A DNA stretch of 64,000 bases, from positions 1-64,000 of the forward strand of contig LODT01000035.1 in the NCBI GenBank assembly GCA_001606155.1, given 5' to 3'. Below, in pieces: positions 1,853 to 56,831 of the stretch; within the stretch, counting starts at the first letter, position 1; each line of letters opens with the position of its first letter. The DNA comes from Tieghemostelium lacteum (Eukaryota; Evosea; Eumycetozoa; Dictyosteliales; Raperosteliaceae). The position numbers were made by a program, and so were the translations under genes. The notes beneath the pieces were generated by a model. The model saw only the letters and a program-made list of their open reading frames with translations. It was not told the origin of the DNA and did no database searches.

Positions 1853-4376
1853 TTATAGTAATGATAAAATAATTAATGAAATTATTGTAGTTATTGAATA
1901 TTTTAATGCAGATGAATCACTGCTGTTATCACCGCCAACTGGTTCAAGTGTTGGTGTTTCGGATGATTCCTCTGATGACTCTGTGGTTGGTGTTGGTGTA
2001 ATTCTTCTACCTGTAGTTGAAGTACTACTTGTTGTTGTTCTGGATGAGGTACTACTGCTGGTGGTAGTTTTTGGAATAGTGGTTGGTTGTGAAGTTGTTC
2101 CAGTGGATGATGAACCAGTTGCAGTTGATGTACCAGTAGCAGTTGATGTACCAGTTGCAGTTGATGTACCAGTAGCTGTTGATGTGCCAGTGGCTGATGT
2201 ACCAGTAGCTGTTGATGTGCCAGTTGCTGTTGATGTGCCAGTTGCTGTTGATGTGCCAGTTGCTGTTGATGTGCCAGTTGCTGTTGATGTACCAGTTGCT
2301 GTTGATGTACCAGTTGCTGTTGATGTGCCAGTTGCTGTTGATGTGCCAGTTGCTGATGATGATCCTGTACCAGTGGCTGAAGATGATCCAGTACCAGTTG
2401 CTGAAGATGATCCAGTACCAGTTGCTGAAGATGAACCTGTACCAGTTGCTGATGATGATCCAGTACCAGTTGCTGATGATGATCCAGTGGCTGAAGATGA
2501 TCCAGTGGCTGAAGATGAACCTGTACCAGTTGCTGATGATGATCCAGTACCAGTTGCTGATGATGATCCAGTGGCTGAAGATGAACCTGTACCAGTTGCT
2601 GATGATGAACCTGTACCAGTGGCTGATGATGAACCTGTACCAGTGGCTGAGGAGCTACCAGTTGGGCCTACTGTAGATGGACCAGTGGCTGATGATGATC
2701 CAGTGGCTGATGATGATCCTGTACCAGTTGCTGATGTTGATCCAGTGGCTGAAGATGAACCTGTACCAGTTGCTGATGATGATCCTGTACCAGTGGCTGA
2801 TGATGATCCAGTACCAGTTGCTGAAGATGAACCTGTACCAGTGGCTGAAGATGAACCTGTACCAGTTGCTGATGATGATCCAGTGGCTGAAGATGAACCT
2901 GTACCAGTTGCTGATGATGATCCTGTACCAGTGGCTGAGGAGCTACCAGTTGGGCCTACTGTAGATGGGCCAGTTGCTGAAGATGATCCTGTACCAGTGG
3001 CTGATGATGATCCTGTACCAGTGGCTGATGATGATCCAGTACCAGTTGCTGATGATGATCCAGTACCAGAAGAAGAGTGTCCAGAACTAGATGAACCAGA
3101 ACCAGTTGCTGATGATCCTGTTCCAGAAGAGTGTCCAGAACTAGAAGATGAGCCAGTACCAGTTGCTGATGAACTACCAGTTGCAGAAGAGCTACCAGTT
3201 GGGCCTACTGTAGATGGACCAGTACCAGTGGCTGATGATGATCCAGATGATGATCCAGATGATGATCCAGATGATGATCCAGTACCAGAAGAAGAGTGTC
3301 CAGAGCTAGAAGAAGAGGAGCCAGAACCAGTAGCAGAAGATGATGAAGAAGAATGACCAGAAGAATGATGAGTAGAAGAGTAAGTACTAGCACTAGTAGA
3401 ATCATGGTCAGTATCAGTATCAGTATTTGTATAATCAGAATCACTACCATTATCGATACAATCTTCAGGGGTCCAAGGTTTACCACCACACTGATTGTTG
3501 ATTGTCAAAAATCTTAAAGAACCATGATCAGGATAGGAATAAGTTCTCTTACCAACAATGAATAAGAATTTATATTTATCACAAGCTATATAGTTTCTTA
3601 GTGGATAATGGAAAACCATATTATTTTCAGTTTCATTACAATTTCCTTGATAGAGTAATTTCATATTGAAATGTTTACCATTACCAAGAATGACCATAGC
3701 ACGATCAGGTTTACGATCACCATTCCAAGTTGCAATAAAAGAAGCCTTATTTGAACTTGGTTCAAAGTAATGAGAAGCTGATACGATTGGGTTATCTTGT
3801 TTCAATGGGCAATGACAATAGGCAGTTGACATATCTTGAGTCCAATATCCATTATAATAACCAAAACCACAAGATTGAAATTCTTTGGCAGTTAGAATAT
3901 TTCTGTGAATAAGTTCAACATTATCATCTTTACAATAATAATTATCACTTTTTGGAGACTCACAAATCCAATTGTTTATCATATCGAGACCAGTAAATTC
4001 ATTACGACCAATGTTCTCAGAGATTTTACCACTACAGGTTTCCCAACGTTTATATCTCTGTGATTGCATTGTACCATTACAGTCATCCAATGTAAAACAA
4101 TGGTTATCCAACATATCTAATGTATGTGATCTTGCCATTCTATTTAATTCATTGTCATAGTAGACTTGGGATGTTGGGTTATGTTTAACCAAAACATTAT
4201 CCAGATTTTCATAGTAATCCTTCATAAAGTATTCTTTATATTTTTGTGGGTTAACTCTTAGTGCATTTAAAATTACATGTCCCTCTCTTTCCATCCAATT
4301 TGGGTGACCTATTAATATATTAAAAGTATTACTAACAAAATTCCACCTTTATTTTAATTTTTTTTGAATACGCACC
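1853..4376 (-). CDS. GPI-anchored CAP-domain protein with long Ser/Thr/Gly repeats
   Basis: Two exons are visible on the minus strand: 4376 and upstream, joined across a 67-nt GT..AG intron (4309-4375) to 1853-4308. The upstream exon encodes a hydrophobic stretch (LIIIFALFVLINKVYS), a good signal peptide, but no in-frame ATG precedes it, so the start probably lies in a further exon or is damaged. A CAP/SCP/PR-1 domain covers about the first 165 residues after the intron (ARSHTLDML, ISENIGRN, YWTQDMS blocks). A Cys-containing beta-rich segment follows. Then come about 450 residues of SSSATGTG, PSTVGPTG and TSTATG repeats. The C-terminus ends in a hydrophobic tail after small residues, as in a GPI signal. 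It is probably a surface or extracellular-matrix protein; its ligand is unknown. It is the gene closest to the telomere. Confidence 0.8.
2101..3360. repeat. Coding minisatellite (Ser/Thr/Ala/Gly-encoding)
   Basis: About 1.26 kb of 15-24-base units inside the CAP-domain gene, written on the plus strand as variants of ccagtagctgttgatgt and ccagttgctgatgatgat. A longer unit encoding PSTVGPTG recurs four times, which points to block duplication as well as unit slippage. Bias in the repeat also keeps a 457-codon antisense frame open, which is a by-product. Confidence 0.9.
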
Positions 4377-8845: not shown

Positions 8846-11451
8846 TTATTGTCTAAAAAATTTATAAATTTCATTTGATTTGATTAAGGCCTCCGAAGAA
8901 TTTTCATGAGCTTGTTTTTTGTTTTTAGCCACAGCTGTAAAGGTTAAATGATTTAGAGTGAGAGTAGAATGAAAAGATGGATCATGGTCAGAGGTGTTTG
9001 GAACTCTATTTTCTCTAAATAGTAAATTGATTGGTAAACCAATAGTTGACATTCTTTGGCAAAGTTCTTCAACTTCCATTTTAAAGCTACCACTATTTGG
9101 TAGTATACGCGGTGGTAAGTGTGTTGGTAGTGTTCCATTAACCAAGTATTCGATTGCCTCACCAAGAAGTATTTCCTGATTTTTAAATAGATCATAAATA
9201 TATTTATCTTTACTCTTTATAATGGAAAAGAAATGTGAATCTTTTGATCTGAGACGACCACGACTCTGAATGAGAGCAGTAATGGTAGCAGGTGGATCAA
9301 CTCTAATGACAAGATTACATTCAGGTACATCAAAACCCTCTTCCACAACACTAGTAGAAACAATGACATTACATTGTTCACCGGTTCTAAATTGATCAAT
9401 AATGTCTTTTTGTCTACGAATGGTCATGCCTTGGTGTCCGACTAAATGATTAGAACGAATAAAAGAGTATTTTTGATGTTTTGCGAGATGATTGAGATAT
9501 TTGTTTAGGATATCAGCAGAATCTCTAGTTTTTGTAAAGATAACAGCTCTAAAATCCTTTTTTTCAATAGTATTGAATCTTGTTAGAATTTCAACAACTT
9601 TTTCCATTTTTGAAACACATTCCATGGAGGCATTAGGGATGCATTGGGTGAATTCCAATAATTTGTCTCTGAGAGCTGAAGGTGAGAGTCTATCAATTTC
9701 ATATTGAATGAATTGACGTACCTCAGAGGGCATATTATTTTCAAAACTGCCAAAAAACAATGAAGTTCCAAAGGTAATGTGAATATAGATTTTCTCAGAG
9801 ATTGTATTTAGAAATTCAAAGAGAGTAGTGTGATCTTGTGGTGAGATATTGGGTTTTATATTGGCAGTACCAGGTGGAAATGCATAGATTTCTGGGTAAC
9901 TATTCTGATCAAATATATCCGATAGGAAACAATTTTCATTTATACGAATATTATAGTAATCCAAAATATTCTTTATAAATTGATAGTACAATGGCTCAAA
10001 GCCAATTGGTTCCATATGGATAACTTCACTCTTGTGTGTCTGTAGATAAGGTTCAATACTGTCATTGGATGGTTTAACCAACTGACATTTACTGAGCATT
10101 GCCATACGTTTTATATTGATCAGAGTAGCAAAGAAACCATTATTTCCAATTGGACTGGCAGTAAGACCCAATATCTTTGGTGCTTCTCTTATTGTTGGAT
10201 ATTTCTCTCTCATAATGACTGCAAATGGATGATTCTTTACAATATGATGTGCCTCATCAAAAATCAATAGACCATATTCATTCAAATCTATTGCGCCTTC
10301 ATTTACCTGATTAATTAACAGTGATGAGATGATGACCAATACTTGAAAATCTTTCTTTAAATCTTTACTTTTAAACTTTTCACCAATGGCCTGAAGTGTT
10401 TTCAAACCAGTCTCTCTTTCAATAACTCTAGCTTGTTGGTCTACCAATGGAATTCTTTCAACAATAAACAATAATTTTTTGTGTGGATTAAGATATTTCA
10501 TTCTACTAATTACTAAACAACTGATTAATGTCTTTCCTAAACCAGTTGGTAAGCAAACTATAATATCTGATTCCATTGATTTTTTATACATTTCAACTTG
10601 ATATTCTCTGGGTGAACTTGTATTCAATTTTGGTACTGGTGAATTAATTTCAAATTTTTGAAATTCTCTATTACCATTAATATTATTATTATTACTACTG
10701 TGATTTGAGATGGATAATGAAGATAAACCCACATTATAGAAATCATCAGTATCATTAGGATCCATATCATCAGCTTCAGTTGGTAGAGTAGGTGGTTGTA
10801 ATAGTTCTTTTTGATATTTTTCAAACATTTTCTTTTTAATAAAACTATCAATTCCAATCTCTAGATAATCTTCACGTGTAATTTCCAATAAAACCAAACC
10901 ATTAATTTTTAATGATTTAAATGAATCTACAAGACATTCTAACTGGACTGATCTAAGCCATACTAATACTTGATCATTTGACCATTTTTCAATTTCATCC
11001 CTTTTTTTTTTAATTAGCATTTGTGTACTACGATTACTGCTGCCTGGGTTACTTGAATTACTTTTACTATTGTCACTAGTATTGCTCTTATTACTATTAT
11101 AACTAATATTATTACTAGATGCTGTTGTACTATTTATAGAAGATGTGGTAATACTTTTATTATCATGATCATATCTATAATTATTAGTATTATTATTATT
11201 ATTATTATTATTAAAAAATGTTATTTGATCAAGATTTGGTGATTCTGTAGTGTTAGTCTTGGTGATAGAACTAAAATTGTTATCTTGTTTATCAATACCA
11301 TCTTCAAAATTTTCATCAATGTATTGTTTTTTGAAATCTCTATGAAATGAATAGCTGTCCATTGTATTATTAAAACCATATGTTGTAGGAATGTCTATAT
11401 TTGAGTTTTTAGGTGATGTTGTTATTATTTGTTGTTGTTGATATTGCTGAT

Positions 11452-11529
<78 letters not shown>

Positions 11530-11747
11530 CTTGTTGTTTAATATAGTTTAATACCAAACGAGCACAATGTTTTTCAGAATTCCTTTTTTTTAGAGAACCA
11601 ATCAGAGTTGAATATTTTATTATCATGGATTAATGATGATCTGTGCTCTTTATTGTGTGCTTCCCCCCTATCAGTGGTTTGGTATGTTGGTATTAATTTA
11701 CCATTTTTCTGAAAGTGTTCCTGTAATTGGTTCTTTTCGGAAGACAT
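8846..11747 (-). CDS. Dicer-type RNA helicase with flanking dsRBDs and a SAM domain (HelF-like)
   Basis: The main frame (11626-8846, 926 codons) has a poly-Gln tract (residues ~31-60), a SAM domain (~205-272, EKWSNDQVLVWL), a helicase of the RIG-I/Dicer/FANCM group with LPTGLGKT near 365, DEAH near 457 and motif VI QSRGRLRS near 790, and a C-terminal dsRBD-like fold (KNKKQAHENSSEAL). Upstream, another frame starting MSSEKNQLQEHFQKNG at 11747 encodes the first part of a second dsRBD, whose last helix (SEKHCARLVLNYI) is in the main frame. So the gene probably starts at 11747, and the frames part at a run of eight A (plus-strand T, 11583-11590). There is no RNase III domain. D. discoideum HelF is a Dicer-related helicase that suppresses RNAi; orthology is inferred. 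Confidence 0.8.
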
Positions 11748-47805: not shown

Positions 47806-47919
47806 TTTGAACACCTTACACACCACCTTAACAAATTACATTTTTTTTTTCTTTGTATATTTTTATAAACATTTATATTTATATGTTTTTTGTGGAATAA
47901 GATAGAGATTGAAAAAAAT

Positions 47920-50900
47920 ATGAGTAGCTCTTCTATAAAGATTAATGATATAAATGATGTTACATTTTTAGCAAGTGGAAAGACTAAAACAATTTATCAA
48001 CTGAATAAAGATGACCAATATGTTTTGATTGAATCTAATAGTTCAATTACAGCTGGTGACGGTGCTAAAAAAGATACTCTACCAAACAAGGATTTATATT
48101 CAACAACCACAACTTGCAATGTATACAAGACATTACAAATCGCAGGTGTAGAAACACATTTTGTCAGACAAGAGAGACCTAATGCATTTATTGCCAAGAG
48201 ATGTGCAATGATTCCTCTAGAGGTCATTGTTAGACGTTTAGCTACTGGTTCTTATCTCAAAAGAAATCCACAAGTTGCTGAAGGTACTCGTTTTTCACCA
48301 TGTCTAACTGAATTCACATTTAAAGATGACTCTCAACATGATCCATTAGTTACTGAACATGACATTTTAGAGATGAATCTAAAAATTGGTGGTATTCCAA
48401 TTACAACTAAAGTACTATCTCAAATTAGACATATTGCAACTCAATCGTTTGAAGTCTTAGAAAGAGCTTGGAAATCATTAGATGTAGTTTTGGTTGATTT
48501 TAAAGTAAGCTTTTTTTTTTTAAATTCCATCTCTATTTAACATATTTTAATATATATTTATAATGCATTAATACTAGGTTGAATTTGGAGTTTCAGTTAG
48601 AGGTGAATTGATTTTAGCAGATGTTATCGATAATGATAGTTGGAGAATTTGGCCACATGGTGATAAATCACAAATGAAAGATAAACAAGTATACAGAAAT
48701 ACACCAATTCAATCATCATCCAATACTGAAACCAATGCAACTACCAAAGTAAATACACTAACAAATGACCAAATTTCACAAATTGAATCCAACTATAGAT
48801 GGGTTGCTGATCAAACTCAAAAACTCTATGAATTTACTCAAGCAAACCCAATTCAAGTTACACCATCGGTATAATATCTTTTCCACTCATAAAAATAAAT
48901 ACTCATCCCTCCCCATCCCAAAAAAGCCCTCAAATATTAACATCATTCCCTTCTTCACTAATTTATAAACCCCATTTTCTTTTTAATTTAATCTATTATA
49001 ATACAGAGATATTTAAATATAAATAATAATTATACAATGTCACCAAGTTCAAGTTCTGGACCAAATTCACCAATGTCTTCTCAAGTTCCTATTGGGTTGT
49101 CTAATTCCAATAGTGGTTTAGGATCTCATTTAAATAGTAGCACCAACAATACTAATCAATTTAATAGTAATAGTTCATCATCATCAATTCACTATAACCC
49201 TAGTACCTCAAATAATAATATTTGTACTACAACAGCAGCAGCAAAAAATGAAAAAGTACTAGTTGGTGTTATTATGGGTAGTCAATCAGATTGGGAAACA
49301 ATGAAACATAGTACCAATACACTAACAACACTTGGAATTCCATTTGAATGTAAAATTGTTTCAGCTCATAGAACACCAGATAGATTATATGAATATGCAA
49401 AAACTGCAAAATCTAGAGGATTAAGAGTTATAATTGCAGGTGCCGGTGGTGCTGCACATTTACCTGGAATGGTTGCTGCATTAACTTCAGTACCAGTTTT
49501 TGGTGTGCCTATTCAATCTAAGGCCTTATCAGGTGTTGATAGTCTTTTATCTATTGTACAAATGCCAGCAGGTATACCAGTTGGTACTGTTGCAATTGGT
49601 GTTTCAGGTGCTGTTAATGCTGCACTGTTAGCTGCTTCTGTTTTGGCACCATATCATTCTCATATTGATAGCAATCTAGAAGCATATAGAAAGAAACAAA
49701 CTGATGCTGTTAATGATTCTCCTGTTGATTTACCTTCATCTCATGATACCATTTCACATAATACCTCAAATATTTCAACTATTCTATCAGTTGGAGCAAG
49801 TCAACAAAATATTCCAGTAATTCATCAACCACAACCACAACAACCACAATCACAATTATTAAATAATCTAAACAACAACAACAACAATAATAATAATAAT
49901 AATATTAATAATAATGTTGCAAGAGTTAGTTCACCACTTCCAATAACACCACCAACACCAATGTTATTAGATAAACAACCAATGTCTACATATATATTAT
50001 CATCAATAAGATCATCAGGATTGGTATTACCACCAGGATCAACTATTGGTATATTAGGTGGTGGTCAATTAGCTAGAATGACTGCAATTGCAGCTGCTCA
50101 ATTGGGATATAAAACACATGTATATTGTCCAGAACCAGAACCTTCTGCTGGACATGTATCAACACATGTCACAAGATCTGCATACAATAGTTATGCTGAT
50201 TTGGATAGATTTGCACAAAAAGTAGATGTCATTACCTATGAGTTTGAAAATATAATGTGTGAGCCAGTTGAATATCTGTCTAGAAAAGTTGCAGTTTTCC
50301 CAGATCCAAAGATTCTAAAGACCTGTCAAGACCGTGTACTTGAGAAGACTTTTGTTCAAAGTTGTGGTATTCCAACTGCTAGATTTGAGCCTGTTGATAG
50401 TTTAGATATGCTTCGTGGTGCTATAAAAAAACTTGGTTACCCTTCCATTTTGAAATCTAATACCATGGGTTATGATGGTAAAGGTCAAGTTAAGATTGTA
50501 GAAGGTATGGATTTAGAACAAGCTTGGAAAACTGTAACTCAGAATATAACTTCTTCCATCAAGGCAATCTTGGAAGAGTATATTGAATTTGAATCTGAAG
50601 GCTCTGTAATTGTTGCTAGAGGTTTAGATACCAATTGCGAGCAAGTTACCTATCCACTGGTGCAGAATAAACACAAGAACCATATCCTTCGTCAGACTAT
50701 TGCACCATCACCTCTACCTGATTACATTCACCAAGAGGCTAAAGAAATCTCTAAAAAGATTAGTAAATCTATTCATCTGGTTGGTATATTGGCAATTGAA
50801 CTCTTTATTGTAAAGGATAAACAAAGTGGTAACTATAGACTACTAGTCAATGAATTAGCACCACGACCACATAATTCTGGACATTGGACTATCGAAGGTT

Positions 50901-51166
50901 GTGCAACCAGCCAATTTGAACAATTAGTACGTTGTATCTGTGGTCTTTCTCTTGGTTGCGTTGATTTTATGAAAAGAGTACCAGAACAAGAATACATTTC
51001 ACAAAAATTACAACCAATTATTATGAATAATCTATTAGGTCAAGACGTTGATCAATGGGAGAAACAAATTCACAACAAATCCTCTCATTTGCACATTTAT
51101 GCTAAAGGTGATGCAAAAGAAGGTCGTAAAATGGGTCATGTAACAATTTTACCTGGTTCAAATTAA
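47920..51166 (+). CDS. Purine biosynthesis fusion: SAICAR synthetase-PurE-PurK
   Basis: Three exons, 47920-48504, 48578-48868 and 49007-51166, give about 1011 residues. PurC (SAICAR synthetase) occupies 1-290 ([20 protein letters not shown]-like [22 protein letters not shown]). A Ser/Asn linker leads to a class I PurE at ~373-525 ([40 protein letters not shown]-like IQSKALSG). A Gln/Asn linker follows, then PurK (N5-CAIR synthetase) from ~635 ([38 protein letters not shown]). Together they convert AIR to SAICAR. The last intron (48869-49006, GTATAA..ACAG, phase 0) is what joins PurC to PurE-PurK. If it is not spliced, PurC ends at 48874 and PurE-PurK would start at 49037. Confidence 0.85.
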
Positions 51167-54996: not shown

Positions 54997-56103
54997 ATGT
55001 GTGAAGAATTATTAGTTTACTTATTTGGTTATGGCAGTTTAATGTGGAGACCTGGTTTTAAATATGTTAGAAAATTCAATGCCTATATAAAGAGATACAA
55101 AAGAGTATTTTATCAAGGAAGTACAGATCATAGAGGAACTGTAGAGGCACCTGGTAGAGTGGTGACTCTTATTAAACAACCTGAAAGTAGTACACAGGAT
55201 GAAAGTTTAAGTGTTGCTGCTGTTCCTGGTGGTGATAACCAAGATCAAGAGGAATGGATAACATGGGGTACTGTATATTGTGTCTCTGATGATGACGCTG
55301 TTCAAATTCTAAAGAATTTGGATTATCGTGAGAAGGGTGGCTATGAAAGACATGAATTAGAGGTATTTGTTGACGATAAACAAGAGAGTGTTGGTAGTGC
55401 TATTGTATATTTGGCAACTACTGAAAACTCTGAATATCTAGGTGAAGATTCTATAGAAAATATTGCAATGCAGATATTCAAATCGGTGGGACCTTCTGGA
55501 AGAAATATAGATTATCTTTTAAAATTGGCAAATTCTCTACATGAAATTAATGTAGTTGATGATCATGTTTTTAGTATAGAAAAAGAGGTGTTGGCACTAA
55601 TGGAAAAGTATCAAATAACTGATGGTTTCATCCATAATTCAACTAGTGTAGCTACTAGTATCATTAGAAGTGGTTCTCCAGATGGAAAGAGAACTGTTAC
55701 AGCTACTAGTAGTGCAACTTCAACTACAACATTTACATTAACAAATAGTAGTAGTAATAATACATCAGATATTGCATTACAACAGGTACTTGAACATAGA
55801 AAGTTCTATCAAGATCCTAAAGGTAAAGTAGTTATTGATGATGGTGCTGTCGAAGCTATCAGTCAGAGAGCTAAATCTCTCCTGCCCATAGGAATTGTTA
55901 AAGTAATTGGTGATTTTCAACCAAACGAATTAATATCAATATTTGATTCCAATTCTCAAGAAATCTCAAGAGGTATTATAAATTATAGTAGCAAAGATTT
56001 ACAATTAATCATAGGAAAACAATCAAAAGAAATACCAACTATTTTATCAAAAAAAGACTTCTCCGAAACTGTGATCGATCAAAAAAATTTAATATTACTT
56101 TAG
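54997..56103 (+). CDS. ChaC gamma-glutamylcyclotransferase fused to a ProB-type PUA domain
   Basis: Single exon, 368 residues. Residues 6-205 form a ChaC domain: VYLFGYGSLMWRPGF, STDHRGTVEAPGRVVTL, the catalytic-glutamate region DYREKGGY, and AIVYLATTEN. ChaC enzymes split glutathione into 5-oxoproline and Cys-Gly. After a Ser/Thr/Asn linker (~220-265), residues ~275-368 match the C-terminal PUA domain of bacterial glutamate 5-kinase: KVVIDDGAVEAISQRAKSLL, PIGIVKVIGDF, EISRGIINYSS, and a final VIDQKNLILL. The kinase part is absent. No in-frame break or intron separates the parts, so the fusion looks genuine. The PUA role here (RNA or protein binding) is unknown. Confidence 0.9.
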   Translation: MCEELLVYLFGYGSLMWRPGFKYVRKFNAYIKRYKRVFYQGSTDHRGTVEAPGRVVTLIKQPESSTQDESLSVAAVPGGDNQDQEEWITWGTVYCVSDDDAVQILKNLDYREKGGYERHELEVFVDDKQESVGSAIVYLATTENSEYLGEDSIENIAMQIFKSVGPSGRNIDYLLKLANSLHEINVVDDHVFSIEKEVLALMEKYQITDGFIHNSTSVATSIIRSGSPDGKRTVTATSSATSTTTFTLTNSSSNNTSDIALQQVLEHRKFYQDPKGKVVIDDGAVEAISQRAKSLLPIGIVKVIGDFQPNELISIFDSNSQEISRGIINYSSKDLQLIIGKQSKEIPTILSKKDFSETVIDQKNLILL

Positions 56104-56324: not shown

Positions 56325-56831
56325 TTATTGTTGGTATGGTTGTGGTTGATATGGTTGTGGTTGATATTGTGGATCTTGTGGTGGATAGCCTCCTTGTTGT
56401 GGTGGATAGCCTCCTTGTTGTGGATAACCTTGTGGTGGTGGTGGTTGGTATACTGGTTGAACAACAGTAGTGTTAACAACAACACCTGGACCAGAACTCA
56501 TTTGACGTAATTTGGCATTTTCTTAATAATCACAAAAATAAAAAAAAAATGTTAGCAGTGAAAGATATACCAATGTAAATATTTTTTAGATCCCACTTAC
56601 CTGATTCAACCATACCTGGAATGAGACACAAGTCAACACAGAACCCAATGAAAAAGATACCAAGGGTGAATAAGTAGATAACACCTGAGCAAGTTCTATT
56701 CAAGTAAAATCTGTGAATACCAAATAGTCCAAAAAAGAACCACAATAAATATGCTATAAATAGATTGTTAATATTATTCAACTATGGTTATAAAGAGTGC
56801 TTTAATACTTACCAACTCCCATGCTCTTCAT
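56325..56831 (-). CDS. TM2-domain membrane protein with Pro/Gln/Gly/Tyr tail
   Basis: Exons 56831-56813, 56753-56601 and 56521-56325 give 122 residues. The start MKSMGVAYLLWFFFGLFG leads straight into a TM2 domain: two helices joined by GIHRFYLNR and ending DLCLIPGMV. The tail has repeats of GYPPQ and YQPQ. TM2 proteins are small two-helix membrane proteins of largely unknown role; the QP-rich tail resembles those of dictyostelid and bacterial TM2 proteins. All three exon junctions were phased by hand. Confidence 0.88.

Follow-up and report, generated by a model that had tools for sequence, protein, structure and literature searches.

The window analyzed here, a stretch of 64,000 nucleotides from Tieghemostelium lacteum, contains a gene in which a ChaC domain is joined in a single reading frame to a PUA domain of the type found in bacterial glutamate 5-kinase (ProB). 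We consider it very probable that this fusion is real and derived in part from ProB. Overall, we lean towards a product that combines a working ChaC enzyme with a ProB-type PUA domain acting as a tethering or self-association module.

Reading frame and ChaC domain of the fusion

The fusion gene lies at 54997..56103 (+ strand) and runs from ATG to TAG as one uninterrupted frame of 368 codons plus stop, with no internal stop. A preliminary description of this DNA had placed a complete ChaC domain and a PUA domain in a single frame and had suggested a profile search of the protein. The open reading frame and Pfam confirmed this arrangement, with both families (PF04752 and PF01472) scoring above their curated cut-offs. 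The motifs that it had singled out, YGSLMW, DYREKGGY and KVVIDDGAV, were all found in the translation.

The ChaC domain spans residues 8-199 (55018..55593, + strand) and matched the gamma-glutamyl cyclotransferase family PF04752 over profile positions 2-174 of 176 (E-value 6.6e-55; 186.3 bits against a curated cut-off of 21). It was the only PF04752 match found in a profile search of the whole T. lacteum genome (23,333,832 bases in 43 contigs). The glutathione-specific gamma-glutamylcyclotransferases human CHAC2 (PDB 6ky0, 6k95) and 5hwk, presumably from yeast, have in common with the fusion the whole ChaC domain, the YGSL motif, the catalytic glutamate and the other residues checked. In contrast to human CHAC2 and the two bacterial ChaC proteins that were aligned, the fusion carries ~23-25 extra residues within the ChaC domain (residues 64-88; 55186..55260, + strand). 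It further differs from CHAC2 by the addition of a C-terminal linker and the PUA domain.

For human CHAC2, PMC7022552 describes seven active-site residues as strictly conserved and also discusses Glu83 and Glu74. In our alignments the seven (Tyr6, Gly7, Ser8, His39, Tyr87, Tyr109 and Tyr144) correspond to Tyr12, Gly13, Ser14, His45, Tyr116, Tyr138 and Tyr173 of the fusion, and the equivalent of Glu83 is Glu112 (codon 55330..55332, + strand). Given that all eight of these residues are present, the ChaC part is in all likelihood an active enzyme, as far as sequence can indicate. We counted one residue against this reading, the second glutamate (Glu74 in CHAC2), which aligned with Gln103; the E74Q substitution in CHAC2 lowered activity and did not abolish it (PMC7022552).

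ChaC and PUA are connected by a linker rich in serine, threonine and asparagine (residues 210-255; 55624..55761, + strand) with AlphaFold pLDDT values below 50. Residues 205-260 scored 0.594 bits per codon in frame 0, whereas the two alternative frames gave -0.139 and -1.647; this is a rough test, because the codon model was trained on 13 further frames in the window and the background consisted of four stretches presumed to be spacers. The GC content of the linker (32.1%) was above that of the spacers upstream (21.0%) and downstream (17.4%). By this rough test, the linker reads as coding and in frame. Among the 234 GT..AG pairs of 40-270 bases in the interval 55560-55830, none had a GC content below 25%, and none started with any of six donor hexamers taken from recall. 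These results bear on the alternative that two genes have been wrongly joined, either by an intron or gene end hidden between ChaC and PUA or by an assembly artefact. The linker frame is open with coding-like codons and offers no AT-rich GT-AG candidate, and the gene is complete from start to stop and flanked by AT-rich spacers, making such an error highly improbable.

Just downstream of the fusion gene and convergent with it is a frame encoding a TM2 domain (56530-56781, - strand). Elsewhere in the window, a CAP (cysteine-rich secretory) domain precedes a Ser/Thr/Gly/Ala repeat of great length (1853-4294, - strand), and the strand opposite this gene is also open, for 457 codons. Another frame (8846-11626, - strand) combines a SAM domain with a DEAD/ResIII helicase and has a long run of glutamines close to its start. 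Two purine genes are close neighbours: one frame encodes SAICAR synthetase (47890-48537, + strand), and the other links AIR carboxylase (PurE) with PurK-type domains (49037-51163, + strand).

Type, conservation and placement of the PUA domain

The PUA domain comprises residues 276-350 (55822..56046, + strand) and matched PF01472 over its entire profile, positions 1-74 of 74 (E-value 1.1e-19; 70.5 bits against a curated cut-off of 24.8). The alignment with the ProB model TIGR01027 (NCBIfam) paired residues 234-366 with positions 239-362 of the 363-position model and scored 80.2 bits. This score of the whole fusion protein is below the TIGR01027 cut-off of 186, as expected because the kinase part is absent; no amino-acid-kinase domain was found by Pfam. 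When the PUA part was searched alone (a 107-residue fragment), the ProB model scored 81.5 bits and the next model 26.9, in agreement with the proposal in the preliminary description of a ProB-type PUA domain lacking the kinase. The nearest solved structures to the PUA part are glutamate 5-kinases. In an AlphaFold model built with 26 ProB fragments, block means of pLDDT were 95-98 for residues 271-350; the final two blocks averaged 88 and 95. Note that the alignment contained relatives for the PUA part only; this part alone was modelled well, and the model of the ChaC part is uninformative.

The alignment with ProB extends beyond the PUA core on both sides. The fusion can be aligned with bacterial ProB (PDB 2j5t, 4q1t) from the junction, with its Arg-Lys, through the core into the C-terminal tail, with an identity of up to 50% to a ProB PUA. 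It lacks the amino-acid-kinase domain and the tail's His-Arg-Asp, and the PUA is joined to an unrelated enzyme. Residues 263-275 (55783..55821, + strand) appear to be a remnant of the ProB kinase-PUA junction, with Arg268-Lys269 kept and the tryptophan replaced by Tyr271; in 113 ProB rows the Arg, Lys and Trp are conserved in 92%, 95% and 96%, respectively. It is shown by sequence comparison that the PUA part begins at what would be the former kinase-PUA junction of ProB. The tail of ProB type (residues 351-368; 56047..56100, + strand) carries Asp-Gln-Lys (361-363) in place of His, Arg and Asp, which are conserved in 96%, 98% and 82% of the 113 rows. The earlier statement that the match to ProB continues to the last residues needs correcting for these three.

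Thirty columns were at least 80% conserved in the 113 ProB rows. The fusion PUA keeps 21 of them, including the Arg-Lys junction and most of the core, and has lost nine, the tail's His-Arg-Asp included. This is the lowest retention among the 114 rows (the lowest ProB rows keep 23 of 30), although the columns were picked on ProB rows and so favour them. The PUA of the fusion also sat on a long branch in all three trees that were built. Low retention and a long branch could mean relaxed constraint on the sequence. They also speak for the PUA being a mere passenger, in which case a piece of ProB would have landed behind ChaC by accident and persisted although it does nothing; the low-confidence linker points the same way. 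Against this, the frame is intact across the whole PUA, where stops or frameshifts would be expected of a functionless stretch, and 21 of 30 conserved positions as well as the complete PUA profile are retained. We regard a mere passenger as rather unlikely.

Three other PUA family matches were found in the T. lacteum genome, which we take to be dyskerin, an MCTS1-like and an NSUN6-like protein. The last of these (L005, genome C42:537306-537422) reads as an NSUN6-like PUA-methyltransferase, with a PUA match covering profile positions 2-40 of 74, and was left out of the first tree (95 rows). In that tree, a branch with support of 99/94 separated the PUA domains of dyskerin and the MCTS1-like protein from both the fusion PUA and the ProB rows. 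The fusion PUA thereby grouped with ProB in the tree that had been proposed as a check.

The donor of the PUA domain was considered in these three trees. In the first tree the nearest row was cyanobacterial (91/86, not starred). The second tree held 25 cyanobacterial rows, 24 of them picked as best matches to the fusion PUA; 11 rows were dropped (L023, L024 and L042 for long branches, L106-L113 as duplicate genomes), and identical rows were also removed. Here the fusion PUA shared a starred set with 20 of the cyanobacterial rows (96/89). It did not form one clade with the cyanobacteria in the best tree, but a constraint uniting them was not rejected (p-AU 0.217). In the third tree, six rows (best matches) from the phylum of genome G012 were added, and the fusion PUA moved to a starred set of three (97/82) with one row of that phylum and one other row. 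The best row of this phylum (L149; 92.2 bits, 50% identity) was the top PUA match across the searches of prokaryote genomes. Since the placement shifts with sampling, we claim no donor. None of the sets included fungal or other eukaryotic ProB.

Occurrence of the fusion and of ProB and ProA

Comparable fusions were sought in prokaryotes, viruses, plasmids and the genome of T. lacteum itself. Searches of 12, 398, 194 and 199 prokaryote genomes, with three genomes included twice, covered 800 in total, and reading by eye revealed no ChaC and PUA in one frame among the matches listed. Note that only the best candidates per genome were scored, with strict limits of 1e-6 and 1e-12 in the searches of 194 and 199 genomes, so that weak ChaC matches are missed and the count is not a full one. 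None of the 202 plasmid records with a match, and none of the five matching phage records, covered 80% of the fusion query in one place. A search for relatives of the whole protein gave 13 pattern matches in genome contigs and one in viral contigs, and a search with the ChaC alignment gave 32 in viral contigs; none was confirmed.

The preliminary description knew of no described ChaC-PUA architecture. In the open-licence literature this stands, in that papers mentioning ChaC together with a PUA domain were unrelated by title, and for broader terms it applies to the matches listed only. Among the matches listed for pairings of gamma-glutamylcyclotransferase, PUA and "domain fusion", the enzyme name was absent, and among those for Dictyostelium ChaC (titles and abstract starts) the term mostly denoted the disease ChAc. 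In the same literature, nothing related by title was found for Dictyostelium glutamate 5-kinase, and nothing at all on Dictyostelium proline auxotrophy or on Dictyostelium glutathione together with 5-oxoproline.

We searched the T. lacteum genome, exon by exon, with the ProB model and the general amino-acid-kinase model and found no ProB kinase. The ProB model matched the fusion PUA and, weakly (32.2 bits), one frame resembling isopentenyl phosphate kinase. The amino-acid-kinase model identified three genes, none of them ProB by reading; presumably they encode isopentenyl phosphate kinase, N-acetylglutamate kinase/reductase and N-acetylglutamate synthase. The first corresponds to L008 (genome C11:262255-263028, - strand). 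No ProA was found above the cut-off of 317; its model gave weak scores of 22-26 bits in three frames, all of which look by reading like other aldehyde dehydrogenases. P5CS was sought through its two halves, the ProB kinase and ProA, without a model of its own. As a control, the ProB and ProA models each exceeded their cut-offs in 12 of 14 genomes, all prokaryotic. In a published survey (PMC11061531), ProB, ProA and P5CS gave no significant BLAST result in four Dictyosteliomycetes, and loss was inferred. The case for absence is strong but short of proof, because the search proceeded by exon and the assembly may be incomplete. The fusion PUA is the sole piece of ProB found in the genome, carried on the sole ChaC found.

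Genes for proline synthesis from ornithine were found. Ornithine aminotransferase scored above cut-off (672.4 bits), and the ProC model matched two separate stretches with 91 bases between them (90 and 77.6 bits, both below the whole-model cut-off of 196.75), the pattern that an intron in the gene would produce. An oxoprolinase-type gene was also present (PF02538, 699.1 bits, above cut-off). This family also includes hydantoinases; the length of the frame, 1251 residues, presumably suits 5-oxoprolinase.

With no ProB kinase or ProA found in the genome, and with genes of the ornithine route found, a direct connection between the fusion and the making of proline from glutamate is not supported, and the PUA has probably ceased to take part in proline synthesis. 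In a wider version of this idea, raised in the preliminary description, the PUA would tie the degradation of glutathione to proline metabolism, perhaps as a sensor of proline or glutamyl phosphate. Gamma-glutamyl compounds are handled by both parent enzymes, and this type of PUA occurs in the proline pathway and influences allostery in ProB (PMC10380284). However, besides the missing ProB kinase and ProA, which are likewise not reported in the four Dictyosteliomycetes (PMC11061531), deletion of the PUA from E. coli ProB does not abolish proline feedback (PMC6099280). Since this feedback survives, the PUA is unlikely to be the proline sensor, and a tie to proline metabolism seems very improbable.

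Possible roles of the PUA domain

With its active site intact, the ChaC part would cleave glutathione to 5-oxoproline and Cys-Gly, and 5-oxoproline would probably return to glutamate via the oxoprolinase-type gene. The ProB-type PUA, carried behind a flexible linker, would most likely play an accessory part, either anchoring the cyclotransferase to RNA or a ribonucleoprotein or driving its self-association, and could thereby set where or when glutathione is degraded.

What the PUA does in ProB itself is called "unclear" in PMC10380284 and "unknown" in PMC6099280. These papers also report that the PUA influences activity and allostery and that E. coli ProB binds RNA in vitro (PMC10380284), and that PUA deletion abolishes the higher oligomers (PMC6099280). 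Because of this literature, we place tethering to RNA or ribonucleoprotein first among our guesses, self-association second and a passenger third. Tethering is a tentative reading, by analogy with ProB: the RNA binding of the parent enzyme is specific, but it is weak and its site unmapped (PMC10380284).

Self-association, in which the PUA would mediate ChaC oligomers as it does for ProB, without RNA binding, draws on the higher oligomers of E. coli ProB, which are induced by proline and need the PUA (PMC6099280), and on the retention of the PUA core positions. The ProB shift, however, involves proline and the kinase, which the fusion lacks, and the conserved C-terminal His-Arg-Asp is lost; we judge this role possible but doubtful. 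A function other than tether, self-association or passenger is unlikely.

Returning to the tether, we suggest with considerable reserve that an ancestor lost, or never kept, its ProB gene and that the PUA survived by fusion to ChaC, where it may now put glutathione degradation under RNA or ribonucleoprotein control.

In conclusion, a known enzyme, ChaC, occurs here in a new form; what is new is the PUA tail of ProB type, whereas searches of the genome revealed neither ProA nor any further ProB. The fusion is a natural separation of a ProB-type PUA from its kinase, onto a different enzyme, and lets the PUA's own role be asked. Amoebae of this group are open to genetics, and CRISPR editing has been reported in dictyostelids (PMC13046832). 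The finding suggests that a domain can outlive its enzyme of origin. If the reading as RNA control is true, a metabolic enzyme would have taken over, second-hand, the RNA-binding module of a ProB of bacterial type.
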